DNA of 64,000 bases from Pontibacter virosus (GTDB lineage Bacteria > Bacteroidota > Bacteroidia > Cytophagales > Hymenobacteraceae), in the NCBI RefSeq assembly GCF_003096355.1, contig NZ_QEKI01000014.1, positions 1 to 64,000 of the forward strand. The letters run 5' to 3'. Of the stretch, positions 19,549-56,292 are shown piece by piece. Within the stretch, counting starts at the first letter, position 1, and each line of letters begins with the position of its first letter. Position numbers and translations under genes: made by a program. Under the pieces are notes generated by a model. That model had not been told where the DNA came from and ran no database searches. It worked only from the letters and a program-made list of their open reading frames with translations.

Positions 19549-19622
19549 TGATCCCGTTTGGATTCGAACCAAAGACCTACTGCTTAGAAGGCAGTTGCTC
19601 TATCCAGCTGAGCTACGAGACC
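19549..19622 (-). tRNA. tRNA-Arg (anticodon TCT)
   Basis: A 74-nt cloverleaf with 7-bp acceptor GGTCTCG/CGGGATC (two wobbles), D arm with AGCTCAGCTGGATAGAGC, anticodon stem ACTGC/GCAGT with loop CTTCTAA, and T arm GGTTCGAATCC. The discriminator is A. The 3' CCA is not encoded. It reads AGA/AGG codons. Confidence 0.96.
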
Positions 19623-19659
19623 AGCGTCCTCAGGAGAGCTTTAGCTCTACCCTTAAACA

Positions 19660-19689
19660 AAAAATTTCGGAATTGCTTCCGAAATTTTT
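19660..19689. terminator. Hairpin terminator between tRNA-Pro and tRNA-Arg
   Basis: AAAAATTTCGGAA (19660-19672) and TTCCGAAATTTTT (19677-19689) form a 13-bp stem with a 4-base loop. It may end tRNA-Pro transcription, which would make tRNA-Arg a separate unit. Confidence 0.75.
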
Positions 19690-19692
19690 AAG

Positions 19693-19766
19693 TCGGGGTG
19701 GCAGGATTCGAACCTACGACCTCCACATCCCAAATGTGGCGCGATACCGGGCTACGCTACACCCCG
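19693..19766 (-). tRNA. tRNA-Pro (anticodon TGG)
   Basis: A 74-nt cloverleaf: acceptor CGGGGTG/CACCCCG, anticodon stem CCACA/TGTGG with loop TTTGGGA, T arm GGTTCGAATCC, discriminator A. CCA is not encoded. Confidence 0.96.
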
Positions 19767-19880
19767 AACTATGCTTTCAACTCCGGTCAGCGATTGTGTT
19801 GCTGTTAATGTTGAACGCGGTGCAAAAGTAAGCGAAGAATTTAAATTGTCAAAACATTTTTAATTTATTTTTTCCGCTTG

Positions 19881-19967
19881 CGGAGGAGGGGGGATTCGAA
19901 CCCCCGGTACCGTTTCCAGTACGGCAGTTTAGCAAACTGCTGGTTTAAGCCACTCACCCACCCCTCC
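19881..19967 (-). tRNA. tRNA-Ser (anticodon GCT)
   Basis: An 87-nt class II tRNA: acceptor GGAGGGG/CTCCTCC, anticodon stem GCAGT/ACTGC with loop TTGCTAA, a long variable arm, and T arm GGGGGTTCGAATCCCCC. The discriminator is G, as expected for serine. CCA is not encoded. Confidence 0.96.
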
Positions 19968-52203: not shown

Positions 52204-53463
52204 TTAGCCTCCTATAAGTATTGCTTCCTCACTTCTAAGCTCCTCTGGTATTTTATCAAGCGCTACATCCGACGGAATGGCCGCCACGAATATACCTTGC
52301 TGCTTCAGGTAGGCTTGGTGCTGCCTGAGCTGCTGCGGTGTCAGTGAAAGGATTACCTGACTTTGGTCTGTATCCCGGTGCTGATTGTCAGGCTGCAACA
52401 GTGCCACAAGTTCCGCGATTTGCGTTGGCTTACCCTGAAACAAAACGGTGAGTTGCTCATTCCCCAGCACGAAAGTCGCCTGGTTAGTGCATAGTTTGGG
52501 GTAGGTATAACGGTAGCCACGCACTGCAGCCGAAATGTCGGCCCACACAGCCGAGCCAGTCGGGTGACTGCCAGCGCCACGCCCTTTCAGGAATTGCTTT
52601 CCAGCGAACTGTGCCTCTATCTCCAGCCCATTGAATTCCGCTTCTACATCGTACAGCGCGTCTGTATCAGGTATAAATGTCGGCAGCACCTGCAGCGCCA
52701 CTTGCCCGGTGGCGGTTGCCTGTACTGACCCCACCAGTTTGATGCGACAATTCAGTGCTGTTGCCAGCTCAACAACTTCAGGACTAATGTGCTGGATGCC
52801 AAAGTGCAGCACATCGTCAGGATGCACCAGCAACCCATAGGCATGCGCGGTCAAAATGCAGAGTTTGTGCAGCGCGTCTATACCTTCTACATCAAGAGCG
52901 GGATCCGCCTCAGCAAATCCCAATTCCTGCGCCTGCTCTAAAGCGGACTGATAACTGCCCCGCTCCGCGTGCAGCTTACTTAATATATAATTAGAGGATC
53001 CGTTCAGAATCCCACGCACTTCCACCAGCGGCTCCGATCCATAGTAGGCTTCCAGTGTGCGTAACACAGGTATACTGCCGCACACAGAGGCTTCATACAA
53101 CAGTACACCCCCATGCCGCTGTTGCAGCTGAATCAGCTCGGGCAGGTTTTCGGCAACCACTTTTTTATTTGCCGACACCACAGTTCTGCCTTGCTGCAAG
53201 GCTTGCCGGAGAATGGAGAGCGCCTCTTTGGGATCGCTGATCAGTTCGGCAATGATGTCGAGACTTGGGTCCTGCAGTACTTCCTGCACATCATAAGTGA
53301 AAGCGGAGGCTGGCAATGTGCGTGGCTTCTCTTTGTCTCTCACACAGATGCTTCCGATCTCCCAACCCAGGTGTCGGTTGGCTTCTACTACATCGAACAA
53401 CCCCTGCCCTACACAGCCAAAGCCGATCAGGCCGATGCGCTTCTTAAACTTCTGTATTTTCAT
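52204..53463 (-). CDS. hom: Homoserine dehydrogenase
   Basis: 419 residues. It reduces aspartate semialdehyde to homoserine. The NAD(P) loop is IGLIGFGCVGQGLF. ANKKVVAENLPEL and GILNGSSNYILSKL mark the substrate domain with GAGSHPTGSAVWADI. The C-terminal about 75 residues are ACT-like but short. It overlaps metX by 20 bases and is the last gene of metY-metX-hom, supplying homoserine to the two genes before it. Confidence 0.95.
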   Translation of the reverse strand: MKIQKFKKRIGLIGFGCVGQGLFDVVEANRHLGWEIGSICVRDKEKPRTLPASAFTYDVQEVLQDPSLDIIAELISDPKEALSILRQALQQGRTVVSANKKVVAENLPELIQLQQRHGGVLLYEASVCGSIPVLRTLEAYYGSEPLVEVRGILNGSSNYILSKLHAERGSYQSALEQAQELGFAEADPALDVEGIDALHKLCILTAHAYGLLVHPDDVLHFGIQHISPEVVELATALNCRIKLVGSVQATATGQVALQVLPTFIPDTDALYDVEAEFNGLEIEAQFAGKQFLKGRGAGSHPTGSAVWADISAAVRGYRYTYPKLCTNQATFVLGNEQLTVLFQGKPTQIAELVALLQPDNQHRDTDQSQVILSLTPQQLRQHQAYLKQQGIFVAAIPSDVALDKIPEELRSEEAILIGG

Positions 53464-54501
53464 AGTGAATGTGCTTTACTTTTTCTGTTTCATAAAATTC
53501 CCGGATGGCCTGCGTGAGCTGTGCCGTTTCCACTAAAAAGCCATCGTGTCCGTAGCCGGAGTGGAGGAGCGCGAAACGGGAGCCCGGCATCAGCCGGTGT
53601 AGTTGCTCTTGCTCTTCTATTGGAAAGAGCAGGTCTGTGTCCACTCCGACAAAAAGCGCTTTGGCCTGAAGCCGCTCCAGGGCCTTCTCAACTCCTCCCC
53701 TGTCGCGGCCAATGTTGTGCGAGTCCATGGCTTTGGAGAGCAGCCAGTAGGTATAAGCATTGAAGCGACTGGCCAGTTTTTCGCCCTGGTATACCTGGTA
53801 GGAGGCAGCCCGAAAATCGTCGGTGATGCTGTTGCCCGGCTCCTGCTGACTCGCTTCGTAACAGGTATAGTGTCTGTAAGAAAGCATGGCAATGGCACGG
53901 GCCGTTTTAAGGCCCGCTATACCTGCATCTATGGTATTGGTATGCCAGGTCGGGTCCTGCCGGATGGCCATGCGCTGGCTCTCGTTGAAGGCGATGCCCC
54001 AGGCCGAATGCCGTGCATTGGAGGCCACCTGTATCAGGTTTTCAAACACCTCCGGCTTTAGGATGGCCCACTCCAGCGCCTGCTGACCGCCCAGCGAGCC
54101 GCCGAGCAAGGTATGCACCTGCGCTATACCTAAGTCCTGCCGCAGCAGATCGAAGGCGCGCACGATGTCGCGGTTGGTCAGTTGCGGGAAGCTGTGGTAG
54201 TAGGGTTGTAGCGTTTCCGGATTAACTGTAAGTGGTCCCGTGGATCCATAGCAGCCACCCAGGGTGTTCGCACAAACCACAAACCAGTCCGCCGGTTCAT
54301 ATAGTTTTCCCTCGCCGAATAATTCGCCCCACCAGTCGGTGAAGTCCGAGCTGCCCGTGAGGGCGTGGCATACCCACACCACATTGCTTCGGTCTTGGTT
54401 GAGTTGTCCATAGGTTGTGTAGGCCAGTTGGAAGCCGGGAAGCAAGGCCCCTGACTCCAACTGGAATTGTTTCTGATAATGAAATACTAATTGTTCAGGC
54501 A

Positions 54502-54502
<1 letters not shown>
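53444..54502 (-). CDS. metX: Homoserine O-acetyltransferase
   Basis: 352 residues. This alpha/beta-hydrolase transfers acetyl from acetyl-CoA to homoserine. The nucleophile Ser is in LGGSLGGQQALEWA; Asp is in GVDTDLLFPIEEQ and His in SGYGHDGFL. ALTGSSDFTDWW and NTLGGCYGSTGP are MetX signatures. Its ATG shares a base with the metY stop (TAATG), and its end overlaps hom by 20 bases, so the three genes are translationally coupled. Confidence 0.95.
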
Positions 54503-55884
<1,382 letters not shown>

Positions 55885-55980
55885 TTAAGACAAGAATGCA
55901 GAATTGGCTACAGACGGACGCTCACAGGATCTACCTGAGGCTCGACGGAATTGCAGCAAAAAAATCGGAGATTGGTCGCG

Positions 55981-56115
55981 CTAGCAACAGCAGCAACACA
56001 TGCACATTCGGCTACAACAGATAGTAGCGCAGGTATGGGCATGCGAAATAACAGGCAGTTGATCTGCCAGTGTAGAAAATAAAAGAAGTTGTGTTGGCTT
56101 GGTTCCCTTTTCCAT
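55981..56115 (-). CDS. Cysteine-rich leader peptide upstream of metY (44 codons)
   Basis: The frame starts at ATG 56115-56113 (MEKGTKPTQLLLFSTLADQL) and ends at TAG 55983-55981. The last 17 codons contain nine Cys: a single Cys, then CC, then CMCCCCC directly before the stop. The start lies 5 nt after the P1 helix of the SAM riboswitch. No hydrophobic signal or known domain is seen. Poly-Cys upstream frames act as cysteine-responsive attenuators in mycobacteria (published); I infer the same role here, with ribosome stalling at Cys codons when Cys-tRNA is short. 144 nt separate the stop from metY. A different 85-codon frame overlapping it (55908-56165) looks spurious. Confidence 0.72.
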   Translation of the reverse strand: MEKGTKPTQLLLFSTLADQLPVISHAHTCATICCSRMCMCCCCC

Positions 56116-56120
56116 AACGT

Positions 56121-56231
56121 TATCAATTTATATACATCCGGACTTCCGGAATCAGGAATTAGCACCTTGCCTGAGGCTGGTTGCTAGCGTTTCACAGAGC
56201 CTGTCTCTCCACGCTTCTTTATAAATCGATA
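56121..56231 (-). promoter_or_regulatory. SAM-I (S-box) riboswitch
   Basis: On the minus strand, conserved S-box blocks occur in order: GCGTGGAGAGACAGGC, CTGTGAAACGC, GCAACC, then AAGGTGCTAATTCC. GCGT and ACGC can form P2. GCCTCAGGC lies in the P3 region and CCGGAAGTCCGG in P4. TATCGATTTATA (56231-56220) pairs with TATAAATTGATA (56132-56121) as a 12-bp P1 with one G-U. The leader ORF begins 5 nt after P1, so SAM binding would likely hide its start region. It controls the metY-metX-hom operon. Confidence 0.93.
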
Positions 56232-56260
56232 CCCACAAAGGGATATCAGACTTGATGATG

Positions 56261-56292
56261 CAAAGCTAGAGCAGCATTTTAAATAATCCAAA
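56261..56292 (-). promoter_or_regulatory. Promoter of the metY-metX-hom leader transcript
   Basis: Reading leftward: TTTG (56292-56289), a 20-base spacer, then TAGCTTTG (56268-56261). Both boxes match the Bacteroidota sigma-A consensus. The start of transcription would be about 25 nt before riboswitch P1. Confidence 0.8.

Follow-up and report, generated by a model that had tools for sequence, protein, structure and literature searches.

Leader RNAs are usually considered to use either a riboswitch or a leader-peptide attenuator. Short open reading frames (sORFs) with a run of Cys codons upstream of an operon occur in mycobacteria, and we know of no riboswitch in front of any of them. These poly-Cys sORFs (Canestrari et al. 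2020, cited in PMC9094748 and PMC13236596) are reported to be leaderless and to mediate Cys-responsive attenuation; they differ from the upstream ORF (uORF) considered here, which belongs to a different phylum, is not leaderless and lies past a riboswitch. Conserved tandem Cys codons are also found in the uORFC-8-2 motif before cysS of the Rhodobacterales (PMC8632094), which contradicts the statement of an earlier note on this DNA that poly-Cys attenuators are established in mycobacteria only. This motif differs, however, in that it ends in an intrinsic terminator, controls the cysteinyl-tRNA synthetase, has no riboswitch and contains only two tandem Cys codons.

Leaders with two inputs have likewise been described. 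In SAM-IXcc (PMC7270179), a SAM-I aptamer acts on met genes, mainly at the level of translation, and the second input is the methionine status, sensed as uncharged initiator tRNA; there, however, the tRNA is bound directly, the operon's own start is the target and no leader ORF is reported. The tandem attenuators of mgtCBR (PMC3641672) read two signals in one leader, with the charged tRNA being read by a codon-rich ORF, but the signals are ATP and proline, which act independently and additively, and no metabolite riboswitch gates the ORF. Logic gates built from tandem riboswitches (PMC9481103) place a pair of RNA sensors in the same 5' UTR, a riboswitch with a T box being one such combination; the T box, in contrast, binds the tRNA directly, and that review contains neither the term leader peptide nor the term uORF. 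For the Bacteroidota themselves, leader-peptide attenuation has been suspected in amino-acid operons of Flavobacterium (PMC9723704).

Compared with these systems, the leader of the metY-metX-hom operon of Pontibacter virosus is stacked, with the riboswitch apparently deciding whether a codon-reading uORF is read, and its novelty lies in the combination and in its breadth, not in either part alone. The earlier note held a riboswitch gating a poly-Cys leader to be undescribed; no description was found in the literature covered, which is incomplete and includes few subscription papers, so that priority is uncertain.

Architecture of the metY-metX-hom Leader

The features of the leader and operon within the window, i.e. 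the whole stretch of 64,000 nucleotides that was analysed, are collected in Table 1. The aptamer matches the Rfam model from position 1 to 108 of 108 (E 6.8e-18, cut-off 44.4 bits), and the P1 helix ends 5 nt 5' of the uORF ATG at 56115, the gap from the aptamer end to the ATG being 9 nt. The predicted promoter lies approximately 140 nt upstream of the uORF, with the riboswitch in between. The uORF translates to MEKGTKPTQLLLFSTLADQLPVISHAHTCATICCSRMCMCCCCC*, the end of the frame being CATICCSRMCMCCCCC, with nine Cys among the last 16 residues, and is separated from metY by 144 nt. In the profile searches, MetY scored 692.8 bits (cut-off 495), MetX 333.4 (cut-off 331) and the homoserine dehydrogenase 312.6 (cut-off 205). 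The riboswitch, the 12-bp P1, the 44-codon frame with its Cys-rich end and the three-gene operon are thus all as the earlier note had read them.

Table 1. Leader and operon features, in coordinates of the window
Feature	Position	Strand	Basis
Predicted Bacteroidota-type promoter, TTTG-N20-TAGCTTTG (consensus TAnnTTTG)	56261-56292	-	from sequence, by eye
SAM-I riboswitch aptamer, RF00162	56125-56227	-	Rfam match, 79.8 bits, full model
P1 helix, 3' strand, UAUAAAUUGAUA	56121-56132	-	12 bp; partner 56231-56220, UAUCGAUUUAUA; sequence and fold
Leader uORF, 44 codons, N-terminus MEKGTKPTQ, tail CCSRMCMCCCCC	55981-56115	-	ORF translation; conserved in Pontibacter
Five consecutive Cys codons, TGT TGC TGC TGT TGC, then TAG	55984-55998	-	sequence and translation
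Met-Cys-Met codons directly ahead of the Cys run	55999-56007	-	translation; Met enriched in the tails of metY uORFs
T7 tract, 16 nt past the uORF stop	55958-55964	-	sequence; C/T tracts common here among relatives
Two hairpins kept in near relatives	55879-55939	-	clade A alignment and fold; structured-region statistic
First hairpin, CTCAGG..CCTGTGAG; second hairpin, CTTGT..ACAAG	55939-55921; 55894-55879	-	
metY, O-acetylhomoserine sulfhydrylase, first gene of the operon	54502-55836	-	TIGR01326
metX, homoserine O-acetyltransferase	53444-54502	-	NF001209
hom, homoserine dehydrogenase	52204-53463	-	NF004976

The same genome has two further SAM riboswitches, one before an O-succinylhomoserine sulfhydrylase-like gene (L002) and one before metH, and no Cys uORF is present at either. 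At L002, the ATG of the gene itself, which is directly controlled, is located 10 nt past the aptamer. Elsewhere in the window, Rfam places a cluster of three tRNA genes at 19549-19967 on the minus strand.

Conservation of the Riboswitch and the Cys uORF

In the Pontibacter set, 32 loci were picked by riboswitch score alone, 19 of which precede metY, and a Cys uORF follows the riboswitch in 18 of these 19. These uORFs start 9-11 nt past the aptamer, encode 39-47 amino acids, begin with M[KNE]KG[IT].. and have CCCC-type ends. At three further loci of the set, which precede an ATP-grasp gene, the peptide is a different one and has seven Cys at its end. The one exception among the metY leaders (L020, in the Pontibacter genome G017) keeps the riboswitch and the start of the uORF (MKKGIKQTP..LMRMCRYMPRRSNFSNRIC) while the Cys run is gone, reflecting either a natural loss or a sequencing error in an assembly that is 87% complete.

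A census of a sister genus (g4) started from MetY proteins alone, so that neither RNA features nor Cys codons entered the selection. All 30 MetY loci proved to have the riboswitch, recognised through its core motif in 25 cases and by Rfam in the other 5. At 29 of them it is followed by a uORF encoding four or more Cys, the typical tail being ARMRMRCCxACCCCC; L245 has a weaker tail, RMRMCWGCWM. The earlier note had named relatives with the riboswitch and no conserved Cys frame as the outcome that would refute its reading; the Pontibacter and sister-genus leaders instead show the two elements kept together as one conserved unit in which the Cys codons stay in frame. Among 12 MetY loci sampled across the class, including that of the window, the pair is also present at L251, L252 and L257, at L255 with a degenerate riboswitch core and at L253 with a short uORF; at L256 and L258 a Cys/Met-rich leader ORF precedes metY with no riboswitch found by motif, and neither element was recognised at L254 and L259-L261.

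Scanning for the riboswitch core with (TGY)3 at the distance expected downstream of it gave matches in 29 of 204 genomes of the family, 41 of 390 of the order (26 of 129 genera) and 9 of 395 in a phylum sample, with the reversed-pattern controls being zero in all three. A wider scan, for the core and (TGY)4 over 84,980 species, returned at least 118 loci. Among the matches listed, all 115 from Bacteroidota have the Cys codons in the frame of an ATG that closely follows the riboswitch, compared to none of the three from outside this phylum; set against an expected one third, the former corresponds to p ~1e-55, a value to be read with the relatedness of the genomes in mind, as these are not independent. 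That the pairing is a chance or low-complexity artefact has a vanishingly small probability: short Cys-codon runs do arise randomly at times, as the three non-Bacteroidota matches illustrate, but the uniform frame within Bacteroidota, the empty controls and the unbiased sister-genus census all stand against it. The pairing of the riboswitch with a Cys uORF is real and far above chance.

The 190 distinct uORF peptides collapse into 122 clusters at 60% similarity, which have in common only the start and the tail. Their Cys codons are mixed (TGT/TGC 423/250), and five of the peptides compared with the NCBIfam models gave no match. Approximately 190 short ORFs are missed by annotation, and the pair provides a handle for finding sulfur-assimilation operons in Bacteroidota.

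Spacing, Initiation, and the Proposed Link between the Two Elements

The uORF ATG is positioned at a median of 53 nt past the AAGGTGC core of the riboswitch (IQR 51-55 across families, 122 clusters) and 7-11 nt past the aptamer end, like the gene ATG at L002. An A is present at -3 in 70 of 122 uORFs and in 79 of 122 downstream genes. Initiation in Bacteroidota does not use a Shine-Dalgarno sequence and is set by local structure and by the A at -3 (PMC6847099), for which reason P1 formation next to the uORF ATG is a plausible off state, as judged from its position.

In the model favored here, the leader is quite probably a composite, serial device in which a SAM riboswitch, followed by a uORF that reads charged tRNA, controls sulfur-assimilation genes. 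Binding of SAM would close the A/U-rich P1 just 5' of the uORF AUG, repressing translation of the uORF, which would be translated when SAM is low. Over the last ~16 codons, with their Cys and interspersed Met, ribosomes would then slow or stall if charged tRNA-Cys and tRNA-Met were scarce, as the codon content and its conservation suggest, and the position of the ribosome at the uORF end would decide expression through the structured RNA beyond it. A leader left untranslated or read to completion would correspond to the off state, and one with a stalled ribosome to the on state. The anatomy of the leader, the conservation of its codons, the associated genes and the structure past the uORF are observed; translation of the uORF, stalling, the sign of the response and its effector we infer from this layout.

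A different reading, in which the two elements control the operon separately and the riboswitch has no effect by way of the uORF, is unlikely. It would account for L256 and L258, where the leader ORF stands before metY with no riboswitch by motif (and, at L258, with a strong terminator), as well as for the riboswitches without a uORF at a metB-type gene and at metH; the tight spacing between the riboswitch and the ATG across families, similar to that of L002, argues against it and for the serial device.

Cys and Met Codons in the uORF Tails

The tails of the metY uORFs are not rich in Cys only. Within the last 16 codons, Met makes up 104 of 708 non-Cys residues (15%), compared to 11 of 1574 (0.7%) upstream (p 1e-42, 71 clusters), and the ATG triplets in these tails number 104 in frame versus 12 and 8 in the other two frames. 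Since Met is concentrated in the tail, and in frame only, the metY leader encodes both sulfur amino acids. In the tails found before cysH, sulfite reductase, ferredoxin and ATP-grasp genes Met is scarcer (17 of 236 versus the 104 of 708 before metY, p 0.002). The idea of the earlier note, a Cys-sensing leader, therefore stands as far as the conserved Cys tail is concerned and falls short in that the metY tails carry concentrated Met codons too. One mark of a leader-peptide attenuator is found here: an upstream short ORF with conserved clusters of codons for the amino acid made downstream, in the form of Cys and Met tails before metY, cysH and sulfite reductase.

It is very unlikely that the Cys-rich peptide itself, nascent or free, is what acts in place of the codons, either as a sensor of metals or redox state or by arresting the ribosome. 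Such tails are able to coordinate metals and are open to oxidation, and a copper-responsive uORF is reported in another phylum (PMC9426467). Yet the 122 clusters have no conserved spacing or sequence beyond the Cys/Met runs, the genes downstream are those of sulfur assimilation, and Met is enriched as well, all of which is at odds with an acting peptide.

The RNA Past the uORF

The region from 5 to 85 nt past the uORF stop is more structured than its dinucleotide shuffles, with z being -1.69 (se 0.18) before metY, -1.25 before cysH and -1.33 before other genes, and the last 60 nt before metY are unstructured (z 0.17, se 0.11). Some leader peptides act by unmasking the start of the downstream gene. 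A translational version of this kind, in which the stalled ribosome opens a helix otherwise hiding the metY start, is rather improbable: individual sequences do allow the Cys tail to base-pair close to the start of metY, but the stretch before metY lacks structure, pairing of the tail with its own downstream gene start region is no better than with that of other leaders (mean z 0.0), and the distance from uORF to gene varies from 45 to 448 nt. Nor did the tail show more pairing than expected with the 40 nt that follow.

Intrinsic terminators are not enriched past the uORF, being present in 2 of 122 leaders versus 2.7 expected; the textbook trp-type attenuator, with an intrinsic terminator, was rejected as a general mechanism for this reason. 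A clear terminator is seen only in the metY leader of L258, which has no recognised riboswitch. This leader has an ORF with ..NMMCCCM.. and a strong intrinsic terminator (GCCCCTCCGGAAATAGTTCCAGAGGGGCTTTTTT), and perhaps represents a leader-peptide attenuator that operates without a riboswitch.

In the Mucilaginibacter-type leaders (n=36), base pairs can form between the Met-Cys-Cys codons ATGTGTT and the segment AACACGT past the stop (helix 1:2, 92% of cells), and this AACACGT can pair with ACGTGTT further on (helix 2:3, 86.5% of cells), the two helices being mutually exclusive. The covariation of both helices across the 36 leaders is no higher than in shuffles. The conserved ATGTGTTGC RNA pairing in Mucilaginibacter could explain part of the Met enrichment.

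As neither intrinsic terminators nor occlusion of the gene start are supported, attenuation by the serial leader is most likely, though unproven, Rho- or coupling-dependent rather than intrinsic. C-containing pyrimidine tracts occur within 50 nt past the stop in 47 of 122 leaders, compared to 3 for the corresponding purine tracts. The body of the uORF is rich in C and poor in G (C/G 2.1), although C outweighs G throughout the leader. While SAM blocks its translation, such a C-rich uORF might be exposed as a Rho site.

Genes behind the Pair

The gene most commonly found behind the pair is metY, in agreement with the earlier note, which had described a leader for metY; the pair also precedes sulfate-reduction genes and so is not peculiar to metY. 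After metY come cysH (PF01507), a sulfite/nitrite-type reductase (PF01077), a YfhL-type ferredoxin and genes coding for RimK-like ATP-grasp, OsmC, Na+/H+ antiporter-family and HPP membrane proteins. Several of these (cysH, sulfite reductase, ferredoxin) feed cysteine synthesis, because of which stalling upon Cys shortage most likely switches the downstream genes on, as a shut-off would be perverse. The pair is thus found at several kinds of loci and in several families of a phylum in which attenuation has been little studied. We incline, if only slightly, to the broader view of a device widespread in Bacteroidia in which a riboswitch regulates a codon-reading leader instead of an enzyme gene. 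Sulfate reduction and methionine synthesis would then be under a three-input gate (SAM, charged tRNA-Met and charged tRNA-Cys) that works without intrinsic terminators.

Some of the genes found in this position point beyond the known pathway. A RimK-like ATP-grasp gene follows the SAM riboswitch and a poly-Cys uORF at L158, L016, L021, L031 and L197, a placement which suggests a previously unrecognised role of this gene in sulfur metabolism. The Na+/H+ antiporter-family protein encoded behind a riboswitch and a Cys-rich uORF at L024, in a genome of the same genus as the window (G018), may be a transporter of methionine or of a sulfur compound. The YfhL-family ferredoxin behind the riboswitch and poly-Cys uORF at L185, L200, L201 and L203 is possibly the electron donor of sulfite reductase. 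At L073-L076, the gene behind the riboswitch encodes an HPP-family membrane protein, and the uORF has 3-5 consecutive Cys near its end.
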